Below are positions 2,914 through 9,719 of a stretch of 10,501 nucleotides of DNA, piece by piece. Made by a program: the position numbers and the translations under genes. The DNA is taken from assembly GCA_029857655.1 (NCBI GenBank), contig JAOUGR010000043.1:1-10501 (forward strand), read 5' to 3'. The stretch's first letter is position 1. Every line of letters starts with the position of its first letter. Origin of the DNA: Gammaproteobacteria bacterium (GTDB taxonomy: Bacteria; Pseudomonadota; Gammaproteobacteria; Steroidobacterales; Steroidobacteraceae). Under the pieces are notes generated by a model. That model saw nothing but the letters and a program-made list of their open reading frames with translations. It was not told the DNA's origin and searched no databases.

Positions 2914-3684
2914 TCATAGTCGCAGCGATAGGCAACTCAAGCCCCCGTCCATCTTCCTGAATTCCGACATCTCGACCGGCACGACATTGTAGCGCCTGGC
3001 CTTGAGCAAGCCGGCGAGCATCGGATATCCCGCGGCCACCAGCACACGATCGTTGACCAGGACGCAATTCGCCGCGTAGCGTTCCTCGGCCGGCACGGGA
3101 ATCAGCTCGTATTGGCTGAGCTCCGGCACGCGCGGCATGTCTTCCGAGACGACCATGCAGCTGTTGCCGAGATAGGAGAGTCCTGTTTTCAGATGCAGAA
3201 GTCGGCTCCCCCGGATGTCCACAATGCTGGACGTGCACTGCAGGTCACCGAGAAGCCGCGCCAATTGACGCGCACCGAGTTCGTTGGTCCGCGACGAGAG
3301 GCCGATCAGGAAATGTCCGTCGACTTCGCAGACGTCGCCGCCATCCACTGTGCCAGGCGCGAAAATCTGGGCGACTTCCTGGAATTGGCTGCGCAGCGCC
3401 TGCATGACACTGGCCACTTCGCCGACCCGGCTCGGCGCGCCGGGGCGCAAGGCGATTGCGCCGTGCTCCATCAGGATCGCCGTGTCTTCGATGAAGCAGC
3501 CATCGGGATGCCTGGGATCCGCCGGCAGTTCCGTGATCTCGAGACCGCATTCCTCGAGAACCCGGCAATAGGCGCGGTGCTCTTCGATTGCCCGGGCAAT
3601 ATCCGGCGGGCCTTCACCGGAACTGGTCAGGCCCTCGGCGAAGTTGGAGGACGGCGGGCGGACGAGGGCGCGGGTGTACTGCAT
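2914..3684 (-). CDS. ddaH: Dimethylarginine dimethylaminohydrolase-type amidinohydrolase (DDAH family)
   Basis: The 256-aa product belongs to the guanidine-modifying (pentein fold) superfamily and is closest to DDAH, which converts N-methylated arginines to citrulline plus methylamines. All expected active-site residues are in register with the P. aeruginosa enzyme: D61, E66 and D67 in DGCFIEDTA, R86, R132, H164 in LLHLKTGLSYLG, and the nucleophile C251 in GGLSCLSLRL at the extreme C-terminus. The length of about 255 aa is typical. No signal peptide is seen, so it is cytoplasmic. Its ATG is three bases after the upstream TAG, and the lipoprotein starts seven bases after its stop, so it sits inside an operon. 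No strong ribosome-binding site precedes it, consistent with coupling. Another guanidine substrate cannot be excluded, because several arginine-like deiminases share these residues. Confidence 0.88.
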   Translation of the reverse strand: MQYTRALVRPPSSNFAEGLTSSGEGPPDIARAIEEHRAYCRVLEECGLEITELPADPRHPDGCFIEDTAILMEHGAIALRPGAPSRVGEVASVMQALRSQFQEVAQIFAPGTVDGGDVCEVDGHFLIGLSSRTNELGARQLARLLGDLQCTSSIVDIRGSRLLHLKTGLSYLGNSCMVVSEDMPRVPELSQYELIPVPAEERYAANCVLVNDRVLVAAGYPMLAGLLKARRYNVVPVEMSEFRKMDGGLSCLSLRL

Positions 3685-3687
3685 CAG

Positions 3688-4092
3688 CTAGTCTGACGGG
3701 AGTCTTCCGCCCTCTGCAAGGCAATCGCTCATGTTTGCGTAGGCGGTGTAGTGGTTGATCCCCGTGAATCGACCATCACTCGAGTCGTAGCAGATGTTAT
3801 TGCGGGATTTCTTGATGATATTCGGGTCGTCGCTGTCGTAAAGATCCTTGCCATTCTGCTTCGGGGGCGAGGGCGGCGAAACGACGCTGCCTTTTCTAAG
3901 CTTACCGCCGGAATCAAGGCATTCGGCAAGCGTCGCATAGGCCACGTAGGCCTCGATGTGCCTGTAATTCGGGCTCGACGCCTCGTGACAGGTACCGGAG
4001 CTGAGGGCCTTGCGTACCGGCAGCTCTTCCGACTGGCAGGGGATCGTCGCCAGGGCCAGGAGCAGTACTGCGGCAAGATACGGGCCACGCAT
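3688..4092 (-). CDS. Small exported protein with two copies of a Cys-pair module
   Basis: This 134-aa protein has a Sec signal peptide (hydrophobic 5-17, cleavage near 20-22; C19 follows Pro, so it does not fit a lipobox). The mature part is an internal duplication. Module 1 (33-66) and module 2 (99-132) share the pattern [GN]xC-[HY]-x(2)-S...[YF]...I..Y.AYA-x(3)-[DE]-CL-x(2)-GG-[KR]-L. In each the two cysteines are exactly 23 residues apart (35/58 and 101/124). A Pro/Ser/Lys/Asp-rich linker separates them. From memory, a similar GICH...ECL..GGRLP segment occurs as a terminal module of some exported HNH-type nucleases, but no nuclease motif is present here. It is the first gene of the minus-strand cluster, with its stop three bases before the DDAH start. 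A weak AGAG lies upstream of its ATG. Function unknown. Confidence 0.82.
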   Translation of the reverse strand: MRGPYLAAVLLLALATIPCQSEELPVRKALSSGTCHEASSPNYRHIEAYVAYATLAECLDSGGKLRKGSVVSPPSPPKQNGKDLYDSDDPNIIKKSRNNICYDSSDGRFTGINHYTAYANMSDCLAEGGRLPSD

Positions 4093-4283
4093 GGCGTTAC
4101 TCTACGCCGAAGAAACGGCTGCAAACCTTTGACCCGGCACCAATCCATCCATCTTGCGTCGCAAAAGGCCGACGCCAGGCACCCGGTTTCTCATCCGCAC
4201 CGTAGTATTTTGGCCATTCTCCCGGTCTTATGAATGACCTTCGGGTCTTTCAGCTGAATGTTTCCACAACGAGGGTATTGATA
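4093..4283. other. Divergent intergenic region between the DDAH operon and the bufferin operon
   Basis: About 190 bases separate two operons transcribed away from each other, so both promoters must lie here. I see no convincing sigma-70 or ECF pair on either strand and name none. The only clear structure is the small UUCG hairpin close to the bufferin start. Confidence 0.6.
4231..4252 (+). promoter_or_regulatory. UUCG-capped leader hairpin upstream of the bufferin precursor
   Basis: TGAA-T-GACC-TTCG-GGTC-T-TTCA folds as two short stems flanking one T/T mismatch and closed by the very stable UUCG tetraloop. An upstream GGTC at 4224-4227, within CCCGGTC, could pair with the same GACC (4236-4239), giving a mutually exclusive alternative. 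The hairpin ends 31 bases before the ATG and may tune mRNA stability or early termination; this is inferred from sequence only. Confidence 0.4.
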
Positions 4284-4649
4284 ATGTCCATGAATCGTAG
4301 AGATTTCGGCAAAGTGATGTTGGGCGTCGCGGGCGGCCTGGTCGCCGGCGCACAACTCGCGAATGTCGCCTCCGCCAGTGAAAAAGCCGGCGACGACAAG
4401 CATGTCTGTAAAGGCCATAACGAGTGCAAGGGCGCCGGTGGCTGCCAGAGCGGTGACGGCGGCTGCGCCGGCAAGAACTCGTGCAAGGGCAAGGGCGGCT
4501 GCGCCTCGGCCACGCATGAGTGCAAGGGCCATAACGAGTGCAAGGGCCAGGGCGGCTGCAAGTCAGGTGACGGCGGCTGCGCGGGCAAGAACTCGTGCAA
4601 GGGCAAGGGCGGCTGCAAGTCGCCGGTCGATCCGGAACACATGGGCTGA
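4284..4649 (+). CDS. bufA: 12-Cys bufferin-type metallophore precursor with Tat signal
   Basis: The 121-aa precursor peptide is encoded just before its MNIO maturase. Bufferins are ribosomally made, cysteine-modified periplasmic metal-binding peptides (copper in studied cases). Residues 1-31 form a twin-arginine signal: NRRDFGK, a hydrophobic stretch VMLGVAGGLVAGAQLA, and a VASA cleavage site. The mature core has 12 cysteines at 42, 48, 54, 61, 67, 73, 80, 86, 92, 99, 105 and 111, spaced C-x5-C-x5-C-x6 throughout, i.e. four 19-residue repeats rich in Lys and Gly (CKGHNECKG, CAGKNSCKGKGGC). The start at 4284 is chosen because GAGGG lies at 4271-4275, eight bases upstream; ATG 4290 (MNRRDF) is an alternative, and an in-frame ATG at 4230 would add residues before the Tat motif without a ribosome site. 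A metallothionein-like role without modification is the main alternative, but the bufB/bufC context argues for a modified bufferin. Confidence 0.9.
   Translation: MSMNRRDFGKVMLGVAGGLVAGAQLANVASASEKAGDDKHVCKGHNECKGAGGCQSGDGGCAGKNSCKGKGGCASATHECKGHNECKGQGGCKSGDGGCAGKNSCKGKGGCKSPVDPEHMG
4407..4634 (+). repeat. Four 57-bp in-frame tandem repeats (A-B-A'-B') encoding the 12-Cys core
   Basis: Units start at 4407, 4464, 4521 and 4578, each encoding 19 residues with three cysteines. Units 1 and 3 (CKGHNECKG...) match each other best, as do units 2 and 4 (CAGKNSCKGKGGC), so a 114-bp block was duplicated. The last part of unit 2 and of unit 4 is almost identical in DNA, including codon choice, which points to recent duplication or gene conversion. 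Confidence 0.9.
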
Positions 4650-4666
4650 GAGCCCGACGCGATCGC

Positions 4667-4696
4667 GCCGCCACCCGGGTTTACCCGGGTGGCGGC
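4667..4696 (+). terminator. Perfect 13-bp hairpin between bufA and bufB (attenuator or mRNA stabiliser)
   Basis: GCCGCCACCCGGG (4667-4679) and CCCGGGTGGCGGC (4684-4696) pair perfectly around a TTTA loop, starting 17 bases after the bufA stop. The following bases, CATTTATTCG, are only mildly T-rich, so complete termination is unlikely. Partial termination, or protection of the bufA mRNA 3' end, would make precursor far more abundant than its enzymes. Confidence 0.7.
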
Positions 4697-4725
4697 CATT
4701 TATTCGTGATGCTCCTTGAGCGTTG

Positions 4726-5592
4726 ATGACCCAGGCCTCGCTGCCTAATCGCTGGAACCTCCCGGACCTTGGCCTGGGCGTGGGCCTGCGCACGCAGCAT
4801 TTCGGTCACATCACCGAGCGCTGGCCGGCGATGGACTGGTTCGAGATCCTGTCCGAGAACTTCATCGACACCGAAGGCCGGCCGCTCTATTTCCTGGACC
4901 AGATCGCCGAGCGCTATCCGATCGTGATGCACGGCGTGTGCCTTTCCGTCGGCAGCACCGATCCTGTTGATTTCAAGTTCCTCGACAAGCTGGCCGCACT
5001 CGCGAAACGCGTGAAAGCGGTATGGCTGGGCGATCACATCTGCTGGACCGGTGTAGCGGGGCTCAATGGCCACGACCTGTATCCGGTGCCGTACACCGAA
5101 GAGGGTCTGCGGCACATGGTATCGCGCGTGCGAACGATCCAGGATTATCTCGAACGGCCGCTGGTGCTCGAGAATCCGTCGACCTACCTGACCTTCGCAT
5201 CGTCGTCAATGCCGGAGGAGGAATTCATCGCGCGGCTCGCGGTCGAAGCGGACTGCGCGCTGCTGCTCGACGTCAATAATGTCTATGTGACCTGCCGGAA
5301 TCACGACCTGGATCCGGTGGCGTACCTGGATGCGATGCCCTACGAGCACGTGGTGCAGGTGCACCTGGCCGGCCATACGGACAACGGCACGCACTGCATC
5401 GACACCCACGACGGGCGCGTGATTGAAGAAGTCTGGAAGCTCTACGCACGCGTGCATCAGAAGACGGGCGGGCGCGCGACACTGCTGGAATGGGACGCGA
5501 ACGTGCCGAAGTTTTCCGTGCTGCAGCAGGAAGTCGGGAAAGCCTCAAGATTCCGCAACGGCGCCAGGCTGGCCAGGCCGGTGGCCGCTTGA
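4726..5592 (+). CDS. bufB: MNIO-family (DUF692) bufferin maturase BufB
   Basis: This 288-aa cytoplasmic protein belongs to the multinuclear non-heme iron-dependent oxidases, TIM-barrel enzymes that modify precursor cysteines (to oxazolone/thioamide or thiooxazole in studied members). Typical metal-site blocks are visible in order: GVGLRTQHF (18-26), DWFEILSENF (37-46), MHGVCLSVGS (68-77, H69), WLGDHICW (100-107, D103/H104), VLENPSTY (147-154, E149), LLDVNNVYV (180-188, N184), QVHLAGH (211-217, H213), DTHDG (226-230, H228) and LLEWDANVP (253-261, E255/D257). All expected His, Asp, Glu and Asn positions are kept, so it should be active. The start is ATG 4726, directly preceded by an in-frame TTG; the ribosome site is weak (TTGAG). 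It lies 76 bases after bufA beyond a hairpin, and its stop overlaps bufC. Confidence 0.95.
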   Translation: MTQASLPNRWNLPDLGLGVGLRTQHFGHITERWPAMDWFEILSENFIDTEGRPLYFLDQIAERYPIVMHGVCLSVGSTDPVDFKFLDKLAALAKRVKAVWLGDHICWTGVAGLNGHDLYPVPYTEEGLRHMVSRVRTIQDYLERPLVLENPSTYLTFASSSMPEEEFIARLAVEADCALLLDVNNVYVTCRNHDLDPVAYLDAMPYEHVVQVHLAGHTDNGTHCIDTHDGRVIEEVWKLYARVHQKTGGRATLLEWDANVPKFSVLQQEVGKASRFRNGARLARPVAA

Positions 5593-6464
5593 GTCTCCGC
5601 GACGCGCCGCGGCTGGAGACGATCGAGCGCTGGATGCAGGCGGTCGTGATGCATCCGGAAGGTGCCGCGGCGGGTGTCGCGGCGAGGCCCGCACGACGAC
5701 TGCTGCTGCAGGCGGCAGCGAAGCTTGAAAATGTGGTGTTGCCGTCGAAGTCGCTGACTTCGCTCGAGCGGCTCAATATCTACGCGTACATGTATTACGC
5801 GCGGCTCCTCGAGATCCTGACCAACGAATACCCGACCACACGGCAGGTGCTGGGCGACAAGGTATTTGAGCGGGCGTGCCGCCGGTTCATTGAGCGCAAT
5901 CCGTCGAAGCACCGCACGCTGAATCTGCTGAGCGAGAAATTCCCTTCTTTCCTGGCGCGTTCGCTGCCGCCGGGCAATCGGCGCAGCCTTGCGGTGGACG
6001 TCGCGCGCATCGAGCGGGCCATGGAAGACGTGTTCGATGCGCCGCGGGCCGATCCGCTGGCGGCGGCCGAGTTTGCCGCGATCGCCGCCGACGAATGGCA
6101 TCGGGTACGTTTGCGCGTGAATCCGGCATTGGTGCCCCTGAAACTGCGGTTCCCCGCCAATGACTACATGAACGTCGCGCGAGCCGGCGCCAGCCCACGC
6201 ATGCCGCGCCCCCGCGCGACATTTGCAATCGTCTATCGCCGCGATTTCAAGGTATTCCGGCGCGACCAGGCGCCGGGACAGTTCAAGCTGCTGACAGCGC
6301 TGGCGCGCGGCAAGACGCTTGCGCAGGCCGTACGCTCAAGCGTCAGTGGACGCGGTAATGCAGACCGGCTGGCCGCCACGCTTGGCGCGTGGTTTCACGA
6401 GTGGGCGGCCGCGGGAATTTTTTGTGGCATCGAGCGGGCAGGCTCTGGGCGGCGCGGCCGCTGA
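5589..6464 (+). CDS. bufC: DUF2063 partner protein BufC
   Basis: This 291-aa protein is of the DUF2063 type, the usual partner of DUF692/MNIO enzymes; it binds the precursor and delivers it to the maturase. The N-terminal helix LETIERWMQAVVMHPEG and the block LERLNIYAYMYYARLLEILTNEYPTTRQVLGD, followed by NPSKHRTLNLLSEKFPSFL, are diagnostic. The C-terminal half, with RVNPALVPLKLRF and YRRDFKVFRRDQAPGQFKLLTAL, is the second, substrate-binding domain of BufC-like proteins. A start at TTG 5589 is inferred: it overlaps the bufB stop (TTGA), has GGTGG four bases before it, and gives the family's usual N-terminus; no ATG exists before the helix. This rare start codon plus overlap implies strict translational coupling to bufB. 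The frame is open upstream to 5490 but that stretch reads as bufB shadow. Confidence 0.92.
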   Translation: MSLRDAPRLETIERWMQAVVMHPEGAAAGVAARPARRLLLQAAAKLENVVLPSKSLTSLERLNIYAYMYYARLLEILTNEYPTTRQVLGDKVFERACRRFIERNPSKHRTLNLLSEKFPSFLARSLPPGNRRSLAVDVARIERAMEDVFDAPRADPLAAAEFAAIAADEWHRVRLRVNPALVPLKLRFPANDYMNVARAGASPRMPRPRATFAIVYRRDFKVFRRDQAPGQFKLLTALARGKTLAQAVRSSVSGRGNADRLAATLGAWFHEWAAAGIFCGIERAGSGRRGR

Positions 6465-6504
6465 GGCTTACACTTCCCCTCAGGCATGTTTGGGGAGATA
6501 GCTT

Positions 6505-6864
6505 GTGAATATTCGCAATCTGGCCACGGGGCTCAGGTACTGCGGCATGGCCTCCGGCAAGAAGCAGACCTATTACGTCTTCGAGAGTGGCAAGGCCTAC
6601 ATGGTGATGTCGGCATCGCGCTCGAAGCGCGCGAGCGGTTACTTCAACCTGGTCAGCCGGGAAGCCGTCACCCGGATCCGCAAGACCTATGCCGGCCGCC
6701 AGGACGTGACGGCAAAGCAGCTTGCCACGCGATCGCGCGGCGCAGGCGTGCGCGATGCGCTGCAAGCACTCAACATCCTTTATGTCCTGGTCGCAACCGG
6801 CGCTGCCAAGCGCGACGATCGCTTCCAGGACCAGCGGCTGCATTTCAACATCCTGCCGCGATAA
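6505..6864 (+). CDS. Hypothetical 119-aa protein downstream of bufC
   Basis: This protein begins with GTG at 6505, preceded by GGGGAG at 6492-6497 with seven bases of spacing, a strong ribosome site. It is basic, has no signal peptide or membrane segment, and looks like a small alpha/beta domain (TYYVFESGKAYMVMSASR, 22-39) followed by a helical region with a possible winged-helix look (RDALQALNILYVLVATGAAKR, about 83-103). I do not recognise a family. It lies 40 bases after bufC and just before a strong terminator, so read-through from the bufferin operon is likely, but its own strong ribosome site leaves an independent role open. It sits where many bufferin operons carry a DoxX-type gene, to which it bears no resemblance. 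Confidence 0.78.
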   Translation: MNIRNLATGLRYCGMASGKKQTYYVFESGKAYMVMSASRSKRASGYFNLVSREAVTRIRKTYAGRQDVTAKQLATRSRGAGVRDALQALNILYVLVATGAAKRDDRFQDQRLHFNILPR

Positions 6865-7969: not shown

Positions 7970-8012
7970 ACTTTCGAGTCGAACCATGACTGACCTGGCA
8001 CAGATTGGCAAC

Positions 8013-8165
8013 TCAGGTTTCGCGAACAATCAGCTCGGTCCCGATGAACTGGGACGCGGGTTGTGCACTTTCGAGTATGCCCATGAGGTTCGAGACAAGC
8101 AGGGCGCCGGCCTGCCGCGTGTCCTGGCGGATCGTCGTAATGGGCGGGCTGAAATAGGCCGCGGC
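8013..8165 (-). pseudogene. Orphan C-terminal remnant of a LacI-family repressor
   Basis: Read on the minus strand, about 48 codons ending in TGA at 8013-8015 give AYFSPPITTIRQDTRQAG, then a helix ALLVSNLMGIL, then FIGTELIVRET. This is the characteristic end of LacI/GalR regulators: the PPlTTirQd segment, the AG..LV..L helix, and the terminal TELivRes strand. Nothing of the DNA-binding domain or the rest of the sugar-binding domain is found; upstream (rightwards) the same frame remains open but reads only as the shadow of the PhoX-like gene. The remnant lacks a start and cannot be functional. It was probably cut off when the PhoX-like gene arrived. Good local match to the family by eye; the exact right boundary is uncertain (8160-8200). 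Confidence 0.72.
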
Positions 8166-8216
8166 CGGCTGAAGTTCGTGCCGCCGCCCGGCGCGGCGTG
8201 GATAATATGCGTGCCG

Positions 8217-9719
8217 ATGAAACATCCGTCCCTCAGCCGCCGGAATTTCCTCGTGGGTTCCGCAGGAATTGCTGCGGTCACCATCGCCACGGTCCTCGCT
8301 GCCCGGCGCTCGCGTCGCATGGCCTCGGGCGTCGCTGGCTCCAGGAGCGTGCCAGGTCCCTACGGACCGCTGCGACCGGTTGCCGACCTGGAAACCGGCC
8401 TGCCGCTGGTGCAGTTGCCGGAGGGATTCGAGTACCGCTCGTTCTCCTGGAGTGGCGATCCAATGAGCGATGGTGCGCCGACGCCGGATTCGCATGACGG
8501 CATGGGTGTCATCTTCGCCGCGCAGTCCGGCGATGAACGGGAGATCGTGCTGGTGCGCAACCACGAGCGCGAGCATGACACGCTGATTGTTGCGCCGGCG
8601 CTCTACGACACGGCAGTAGAGGGCGGGAATCTGCCCATGGGCGGCGGCACGACCACGCTCACGTTCCGCGGCGGCCGCTGGATCAGCGCCGTGCCCTCGC
8701 TCGGCGGCACATACGATAATTGTGCGGGCGGCGTGACACCCTGGGGCACCTGGCTTTCCTGCGAGGAGACCAAGCTCGATCGCAGCCGGCAGGGCGGGCG
8801 CAGGCACGGTTATGTGTTCGAAGTGCGGCGCCATGCCGCCGAGACCACCGGCCGGCCGATCGTGGACATGGGCCGCATGGCGCACGAGGCCGTCGCGATC
8901 GATCCGGAAACGCGCATCGCCTACCTGACGGAAGACGACGACGATGTCCGCAGTGGCGGTTTCTATCGCTTCGTTCCGAAGGATCCCGGCGGCAATGCCG
9001 GCAGCTACGAGGAGGGCGGGCAGCTGCAGGCAGCCCGGGTCATTGGCAATCGCAACGCGGATTTGCGCGCGCCGGCGGTCGGCGATCTTTACCAGGTCGA
9101 ATGGGTGGATATTGAAAACCCGGATGCTGATCCTGGTGCCGCTCCGCCCGAAATCGCCTCAGCAACGACGCTGGCCAGCGGCCCGTTCCGGCAGGCCTGG
9201 TCCCAGGGCGCATTGCGCCTGCGCCGCGGCGAAGGAATCTGCCATCACGCGGGCAAATTCTATGTCGTCGATACCGCCGCCGGCACCGACATGTTCGGGC
9301 GGCGTGGCCGCGGGGACGGCGCGGTCTGGGAGTACGATCCGCGCACCGGGAACCTGCGTGCGATCTTTGTCGCCGACAGCCAGGAGGTCGGCGACAACAT
9401 CGATAACATCACGGCAAGCCCGCGTGGCGGCCTGTTTCTCTGCGAGGACGGCGATTCAATCGTGGACGCCTATGGTCCGGGCATGCGGCTGCTCGGCCTG
9501 ACGGCCGAAGGCGACTCGTACACGTTCATGAAGAATCATGTGCAGCTGACTGAGCAGCAAATCACCTCGGCAGGCAAGCAGATTGCGCCCGGCGATTATC
9601 GCGGCGAGGAACTAGCCGGCGTCTGTTTCGATCCCGCCGGCGAGCTGATGTTCGTGAATATCCAGCGCCCGGGGATCACGCTTGCGATCTGGGGCCCGTG
9701 GGCGAAGGGCAACCTCTAG
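8217..9719 (+). CDS. Tat-exported PhoX-like (DUF839) phosphatase-family protein
   Basis: This 500-aa protein begins with a textbook Tat signal: LSRRNFL (6-12), then GSAGIAAVTIATVLAA. The mature part is a PhoX/DUF839 beta-propeller; characterised PhoX enzymes are periplasmic phosphomonoesterases that use iron and calcium. Matching blocks are LVRNHEREH (112-120), EGGNLPMGGGTTTL (135-148), GGTYDNCAGGVTPWGTWLSCEE (163-184) with the iron-ligand-type Cys169 and acidic E183/E184, GRMAHEAVAIDPET (219-232), AYLTEDDDD (235-243), RRGEGICH (336-343) and LFLCEDGD (406-413). It is shorter than classical PhoX (about 600 aa or more), so phosphatase activity should be taken as likely but unproved. ATG 8217 is chosen by the Tat motif; an in-frame GTG at 8211 has a better placed GTGGA. 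No Pho-box pair is evident upstream, where the LacI remnant lies antisense. Confidence 0.9.
   Translation: MKHPSLSRRNFLVGSAGIAAVTIATVLAARRSRRMASGVAGSRSVPGPYGPLRPVADLETGLPLVQLPEGFEYRSFSWSGDPMSDGAPTPDSHDGMGVIFAAQSGDEREIVLVRNHEREHDTLIVAPALYDTAVEGGNLPMGGGTTTLTFRGGRWISAVPSLGGTYDNCAGGVTPWGTWLSCEETKLDRSRQGGRRHGYVFEVRRHAAETTGRPIVDMGRMAHEAVAIDPETRIAYLTEDDDDVRSGGFYRFVPKDPGGNAGSYEEGGQLQAARVIGNRNADLRAPAVGDLYQVEWVDIENPDADPGAAPPEIASATTLASGPFRQAWSQGALRLRRGEGICHHAGKFYVVDTAAGTDMFGRRGRGDGAVWEYDPRTGNLRAIFVADSQEVGDNIDNITASPRGGLFLCEDGDSIVDAYGPGMRLLGLTAEGDSYTFMKNHVQLTEQQITSAGKQIAPGDYRGEELAGVCFDPAGELMFVNIQRPGITLAIWGPWAKGNL

Follow-up and report, generated by a model that had tools for sequence, protein, structure and literature searches.

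The described systems closest to the locus examined here are the bufferins and the Lys-Cys captophorins, for which copper and thiooxazole have been reported (PMC12452194, PMC13097082). Bufferins of the Buf2 type (BufA2, Buf_6/12Cys, Antoine et al. 2025; NF050166) are encoded in the order bufA, bufB, bufC, carry 6 cysteines in 90% of cases and 12 in about 10%, and have signals of the general secretory (Sec) or lipoprotein type (PMC12452194). Buf1 bufferins (DUF2282, PF10048) belong to another precursor family with four conserved cysteines and likewise have MNIO and DUF2063 partners (PMC12452194). These partners also accompany the Lys-Cys captophorins (fontiphorin, oxazolin/HvfA), which have repeated cysteine motifs of the EGKCG type; 5-thiooxazoles are found in those characterised (PMC13097082). 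Antoine and colleagues noted that precursors with Sec signals must somehow avoid export before modification, by a mechanism that is speculative (PMC12452194). Here we describe a bufferin-type operon at positions 4284..6464 of a 10,501-nt stretch of DNA from a Gammaproteobacteria bacterium of the Steroidobacteraceae (assembly GCA_029857655.1, contig JAOUGR010000043.1; the whole stretch is called the window), the precursor of which carries a twin-arginine translocation (Tat) motif, the signal for a route that takes folded proteins where Sec takes unfolded ones.

With a probability of about 0.68, we read this locus as a copper-buffering operon of the Buf2 kind for a ribosomally synthesised and post-translationally modified peptide (RiPP) whose precursor would be exported by Tat; the figure includes the maturation, export switch and hairpin reading given below. 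All three genes lie on the forward strand. bufA (4284..4649) encodes a precursor of 121 amino acids, bufB (4726..5592) an MNIO maturase (PF05114, NF050167) and bufC (5589..6464) a DUF2063 partner protein, which is the gene order of bufferin operons. BufB scored 341.6 bits against NF050167 (MNIO_BufB, cut-off 310) and also passed PF05114, and BufC scored 61.1 bits against PF09836 (DUF2063, cut-off 27.2); a sequence search for a solved structure gave no credible match to BufC. For bufB, the ATG at 4726 is a more likely start than the TTG at 4723, and the most likely start of bufC is the TTG at 5589, giving a four-base overlap with the bufB stop. A preliminary description of this DNA had proposed a bufferin-type operon with an intact MNIO gene and a DUF2063 gene at these coordinates. 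Both position and content were borne out, and the bufferin type is supported by the profile scores, the precursor scoring 56.4 bits against NF050166 (BufA2) where the cut-off is 60.

The twelve cysteines of BufA run from residue 42 to 111 (4407..4616) with spacings of 5, 5, 6, 5, 5, 6, 5, 5, 6, 5 and 5, which on recounting in the open reading frame agreed exactly with the C-x5-C-x5-C-x6 array of four 19-residue units noted before. The array is a duplicated block of 38 amino acids (residues 42-79 and 80-117), the two copies being identical at 92 of 114 nucleotides and 31 of 38 residues, and the two 19-residue halves of the first block are far more diverged (29/57 nt identical). Lysine directly follows 8 of the 12 cysteines. 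The array is preceded by the signal peptide MSMNRRDFGKVMLGVAGGLVAGAQLANVASA, with a hydrophobic core VMLGVAGGLVAGA (4314..4352) and, from reading of the sequence, a likely signal peptidase I site ASA (4368..4376).

The precursor shares with Buf2 the bufABC order, the first five cysteines at x5-x5-x6-x5 and the 12-cysteine form, which is already published. It differs in its Tat-type rather than Sec signal, in its sixth cysteine, which stands in CKGKGGC and not after a CKGxG(W/F)-type stretch, and in its BufB, which has EWDA rather than ERDD and falls in a separate, supported clade. From Buf1 it differs in precursor family, and from the captophorins in having a Cys-Lys array rather than EGKCG. 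Comparison with the BufA families, as the preliminary description had suggested, thus gave a divided result: cysteine number and spacing are those of Buf2, and the BufA2 cut-off was narrowly missed. This narrow miss is not an absence, and among ten relatives four passed (three of nine RR members, P0020, P0083 and P0101, and the single non-RR member, L054) and six scored 51.7-58.7. Twelve cysteines are not novel in themselves, being a known minority form (PMC12452194). On present sequences the locus is best filed as a Tat-targeted 12-Cys branch of Buf2. Two relatives, P0051 and P0094, have a final array unit that continues into a Buf2-like tail (P0094: CKGKGWIELSEKDC), linking the array family with six-Cys Buf2.

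A protein search returned 6414 homologues at E<=1e-3 among 8000 scored, of which 120 were listed and examined. Genomic loci were the best 80 of 449 contig stretches encoding relatives; the alignment used to find and rank them contained RR members alone. Most carried the labels Gammaproteobacteria, Acidobacteriota or Planctomycetota, and a small number came from other groups, among them Deltaproteobacteria, Eremiobacterota and Armatimonadetes. An MNIO sequence lay directly downstream of the precursor in 68 of the 80 loci (67 within 175 nt, from scripted starts), and a bufC sequence was found in 63 by tblastn with the window proteins. The number of homologues and the position of the MNIO gene directly after the precursor argue that the array reading frame is not a chance one. 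In the remaining 12 loci the MNIO sequence was upstream (L076) or absent from the sequence examined (11 loci, including L065, where the sequence ends just past the precursor). The isolate SZAS-1 has three array precursor genes (L055, L066 and L075), of which only L075 adjoins an MNIO gene, and a shared maturase is possible. One non-RR array precursor with no MNIO gene beside it (L068) comes from a metagenome-assembled genome labelled Klebsiella pneumoniae, a label that may be wrong.

The arginine pair occupies residues 5 and 6 of BufA (4296..4301), inside MSMNRRDFGKVMLG, in the motif RRDFGK. The Tat consensus is S-R-R-x-F-L-K, and the hydrophobic (h-) regions of Tat signals are less hydrophobic (PMC7317946). 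RR-x-[FLMVIA] preceded the array in 116 of the 120 homologues listed (110 with RR-x-F), and the other four begin MNGKDIRKF or MNGKDVRKF. Sequences of MNGKDIRKFL-like type (L057, L159, P0013, P0019, P0033 and P0045) form a subgroup with a Tat-like motif lacking RR, a possible Tat-Sec intermediate. RR-x-[FLMVI] was present in 44 of the 80 loci, a share biased upwards because they were found and ranked by the RR-only alignment, and L047 has RRDA; the remaining loci have K-rich or neutral N-terminal (n-) regions, many with a lipobox. Lipobox and RR occur together in L021, L022, L043, L076 and L084. A script chose the starts from ATG, resemblance to a Shine-Dalgarno site and hydrophobicity, and two of them (L030 and L047) were reset by hand; in the class assignment L047 (RRDA) was kept as non-Tat and L043 (RRVV) as Tat. 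The Phe position of the motif is filled by F in 43 of the 45 RR loci, and 30 of the 45 have K or R where the motif has Lys. The 46 RR pairs of these loci and the window are written in 17 codon pairs that use all six Arg codons. Hydrophobicity of the h-region was lower among RR members (1.72) than among the others (2.04; Mann-Whitney p 1e-6, the rows not being independent).

Two phylum surveys, of 297 genomes (phylum of L020, labelled Acidobacteria) and 294 genomes (phylum of L021, labelled Planctomycetota), used the identical RR-only alignment, overlap in part with the 80 loci and gave matches in 41 and 43 genomes. Sixty loci were examined; 36 were clear arrays, two without a signal and 22 failing the array rule being dropped. 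RR was found in 21 of the 36 (6/11 and 15/25); RR or start is uncertain in L198 and L204, and in L161 and L197 an RR lies a little upstream of the start chosen by script. MNIO sequence lay within the 1.5-kb flanks of 30.

Control precursors from the window's class had RR in 0/30 Buf1 and 1/30 six-Cys Buf2 sequences. A chance trait of a basic n-region was ruled out as the source of the pair by these two controls and by the codon turnover. By comparison across relatives, the twin-arginine motif of the 12-Cys array family is genuine and conserved. The window's signal has the sequence features of a Tat substrate (RR-x-F under selection, an AxA site in ASA and TatC encoded in the host genome), and by the criteria of motif and conservation RRDFGK, ahead of an h-region of low hydrophobicity, does not fit the Sec signal of BufA2. 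The Tat signal of the preliminary description is thus backed by conservation, synonymous codon turnover, the contrast with Buf1 and six-Cys Buf2, and TatC in the same genome. The one six-Cys Buf2 precursor with a twin-arginine motif (L109, TRRKF) suggests that Tat signals may have arisen outside the array family too. Two of the 30 Buf1 (DUF2282) precursors, L130 and L145, start with MTDKRTFLK or MTDKRAFLK, a Lys-Arg version of the Tat motif.

Trees were built from the BufB sequences of 41 RR rows, one of them the window's, and 28 further array rows, to which 26 BufB sequences of six-Cys Buf2 operons were added for the quick tree and six for the careful tree (in which long branches meet at L049 and the outgroup). 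Array-family BufB formed a clade apart from the six-Cys sequences with 99% support in the Shimodaira-Hasegawa-like approximate likelihood ratio test (SH-aLRT) on the quick tree and 100/100 on the careful tree. The window fell in a group of 18 rows labelled Gammaproteobacteria, Deltaproteobacteria and Planctomycetota (96% SH-aLRT, quick tree), its closest BufB being 95% identical and from a Steroidobacteraceae metagenome-assembled genome. The preliminary description had asked whether close relatives keep the Tat motif and took homologues with a Sec signal and no RR as evidence against it: RR is present in 18/18 rows of this group, and it is the distant groups that have switched. Six changes of export type were needed on either tree (6-7 on bootstrap trees of the careful analysis), and supported branches force at least two on the quick tree and at least four on the careful tree. 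With 41 rows of BufB, the approximately unbiased test rejected a single origin of the Tat signal (p 0.00026); for 37 rows, L043, L046, L064 and L038 being removed, a single Tat clade gave p 0.0078, this group having been picked after the tree was seen. Taking the BufB tree as operon history, which is an assumption, signals of the Tat type and of the Sec or lipoprotein type are exchanged across the wider array family.

This exchange bears on whether the signal may be Sec-competent or dual, with RR present and export mainly through Sec. More than half of E. coli Tat signals engage Sec when given a suitable cargo (PMC7317946), and the same kind of maturase serves sister lineages here whose signals are Sec-like or of the lipoprotein type. 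Against this, the invariance of RR in the window's 18-row group and the 17 codon pairs across the family point to selection on the pair, and Sec would be expected to handle arrays poorly once they are modified or bind metal. We consider such a signal unlikely.

A profile of the h-region (consensus AAVAGMVAGS), trained on 40 different sequences from RR members, was scored against shuffles of the same h-region. At p<0.05 it recognised 33 of the 36 array precursors classed as non-Tat, L047 being one of the 36, and 2/28 Buf1 and 3/22 six-Cys control signals, the controls being those left of 30 each after omission of near-duplicates and unclear starts, several hand-trimmed to the likely start. The h-region motif is thus common to Tat and non-Tat relatives. 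Preliminary results of Antoine and colleagues place the signal peptide of Buf1 within the sequence recognised by BufB and BufC (PMC12452194). Because the h-region is kept whichever n-region precedes it, this published hint suggests that the h-region would be the address read by BufB and BufC, and the n-region, with RR as an exchangeable element, the address for the exporter. If the n-region picks the exporter and the h-region the maturase, lineages could swap a Tat for a Sec or lipoprotein signal and retain maturation.

The same preliminary results would also fit RR as part of the leader read by BufB and BufC, and not a Tat signal, the peptide leaving through Sec. This is quite unlikely on several grounds. 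Non-RR members retain BufB of the same clade, and BufC, beside them, and the element conserved across the classes is the h-region and not RR. RR followed by F, together with the lower hydrophobicity, is a Tat signature. No BufB position separated Tat from non-Tat rows at a 65%/60% contrast, and in BufC two positions (L186 and R198) passed a looser contrast of 55% (62 rows), which suggests that RR is not obviously read by the maturase. A Tat-specific maturase was rejected on these same counts.

The gap between bufA and bufB holds a perfect inverted repeat of 13 bp on the forward strand (4667..4696), predicted to form an RNA hairpin; the predicted fold of 4647-4725 has an energy of -42.1 kcal/mol (z -4.92). 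All 13 stem pairs are kept in the window, L013, L014 and L017, and 4 of the 13 have changed on both sides. Stems of at least 8 pairs at p<=0.05 (60 shuffles each) occurred in 44 of 69 array-family gaps between bufA and bufB, in 4/69 stretches upstream of bufA, 2/69 and 1/67 inside bufB and 3/61 after bufC. Such hairpins also followed 18/30 six-Cys Buf2 genes (0 in control stretches) and 13/29 Buf1 genes (2 in controls), the Buf1 stretch after the gene not always being the gap that precedes the MNIO gene. A long hairpin between precursor and MNIO gene thus looks like a general feature of bufferin operons; the words hairpin, stem-loop and terminator were absent from a word search of PMC12452194 in the portion available. 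Few rows (9/70, the window counted twice) had a tail rich in T, defined as 5 or more T in 9 nt, and no Rfam family reached its gathering score in the window. The hairpin likely acts in partial termination or 3'-end protection, and would favour precursor mRNA over enzyme mRNA and so give more precursor than enzyme.

In the proposed scheme, BufA would be made in the cytoplasm, where BufC, together with BufB, would recognise the h-region of its signal peptide as a leader. BufB would oxidise cysteines of the array, most likely those followed by lysine and probably to 5-thiooxazoles. The RR motif would then pass the finished and compacted, possibly metal-bound, peptide to the Tat translocase, modification and perhaps metal-loading preceding export. 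Signal peptidase would free the peptide in the periplasm, where it would bind excess copper. Copper function and thiooxazole chemistry are carried over here by analogy with the relatives. A further comparison, made purely as an analogy, is with classical Tat substrates served by redox enzyme maturation proteins (REMPs), which receive a cofactor or modification in the cytoplasm before Tat export and have a signal-binding partner (PMC3316669); here the cargo would be a small repetitive peptide and the partner a DUF2063 protein. That bufA encodes an ordinary unmodified, metallothionein-like Cys-rich secreted protein merely adjoining MNIO genes draws on the 12 of 80 loci with no MNIO directly downstream in the sequence examined, some being the extra copies in SZAS-1, and is very improbable given the downstream MNIO genes and the bufC genes of the other loci and a host draft genome whose one MNIO match sits at this operon.

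The active site of the maturase sets the array family apart. E255-W256-D257-A258 of the window's BufB (5488-5499) aligns with E-R-D-F of 3BWW. Tryptophan at 256 is found in 66 of 69 array BufB sequences (the other three are gapped) and arginine in 25/26 six-Cys sequences; position 258 is Asp in 24/26 six-Cys and 9/69 array sequences, and in the array family mostly Ala, Glu, Asp or Gln. EWD followed by one of these residues, as opposed to ERDD in six-Cys BufB, is a candidate class marker. Polar residues kept in at least 95% of 95 aligned BufB sequences are present in the window (for example H69, D103, H104, E149, N150, D182, N184, H213, H217, D226, H228, E255 and D257). At the position of FonB Phe250, an Asp has been proposed to hold the substrate Lys in Cys-Lys bufferin enzymes (PMC13097082). 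In the register of the 3BWW alignment the residue after the catalytic Asp in the window is Ala258, and at the position of Arg16 (placed via the GLR motif) it is Thr, both differing from the captophorin enzymes.

The alanine is one of several points that weigh against the Tat-exported, copper-buffering reading. The published Cys-Lys bufferin enzymes carry the Lys-holding Asp there, and with a precursor in which 8 of 12 cysteines precede lysine, substrate selection may differ. The Leu position of the Tat motif is Gly in RRDFGK, and K or R after the h-region is no more than weakly commoner in RR members (33/44 vs 20/36, Fisher p 0.10). Of 14 RR-type genomes searched for TatC, 3 gave no match (those of L018, L022 and L046, of unstated completeness), and 16 of 18 non-RR genomes have it, so that signal type does not follow TatC presence, and an explanation of the Tat type by the presence of TatC was unsupported. 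The six-Cys control set also gave a slight combined h-region signal (p 0.03), and the shared h-region motif is partly common descent. Tat requires a folded cargo, and without modification or bound metal an array so rich in Gly, Lys and Cys may be disordered. None of the neighbouring genes scanned has a link to copper.

In the portion of PMC12452194 available, bufferin signals are described as Sec, the survey's precursor search required a predicted Sec signal, and 'Tat' and 'twin-arginine' were absent from a word search of the main text. A paper on copper efflux mentions both bufferins and twin-arginine, at separate places in the portion available (PMC12509749). Among the papers examined, our literature search found no report of Tat-exported MNIO peptides; it did not cover the founding PNAS bufferin paper, which may mention them. 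Within the scope of that search, this family would be the first among RiPPs to have a Tat signal. New here would be the switching of export type, the reading of two addresses in one signal and the active-site signature of the enzyme. The chances appear about even that the family as a whole is a multi-phylum, copper-binding RiPP branch whose peptides mature, fold and perhaps take up metal in the cytoplasm before Tat exports them, and in which the exporter has repeatedly been swapped between Tat, Sec and lipoprotein types and the h-region address of the maturase kept, as two independent addresses. If so, the Tat lineages would have a natural answer to the problem of avoiding premature Sec export. 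Since Tat and Sec-like signals have repeatedly been exchanged next to one kind of maturase, the family offers a natural experiment on how export before modification is avoided, and related operons could be set side by side to see how they differ in modification, in export route and in the metal state of the peptide. Screens that require a predicted Sec signal could miss Tat-type members.

The host genome is a draft of 2.56 Mb, 88% complete, with no match to PF10048 (DUF2282). A weak second precursor match in it (C130, E 9e-4, containing a stop) was taken as chance. The preliminary description saw no DoxX-type bufD beside the genes or elsewhere in the window, and rightly so: there is no DoxX match on the window's contig (C211), the two in the host genome being on contigs C362 and C29. 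The gene bufD is common but not universal in bufferin operons (PMC12452194). Among 20 relatives, with positions compared by eye and some contigs short, DoxX lay on the same contig within 5 kb of the array MNIO gene in 0/12 RR-type and 3/8 non-RR genomes (G421, G425 and G432), so that its absence here looks normal for the Tat branch. A conserved fourth gene was also sought; the next same-strand open reading frame, present in 45 of 63 bufC-bearing loci, was heterogeneous, with no Pfam family in more than 3 of the 45, and as 25 of 52 families were shown, isolated DoxX cases could be concealed.

A consensus scan of 4000-6700 gave no sigma-70 promoter. Upstream of the operon, the reverse strand encodes a dimethylargininase-like protein (2914-3684; 250 bits against NF045658, far under the cut-off of 450). 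Downstream, at 7986-9719, is a PhoX-domain protein with an internal SRRNFLVG near residue 83, scoring 18.5 bits against Pfam TAT_signal, below its cut-off; from the internal motif, its true start is probably downstream and the protein is likely a Tat substrate.

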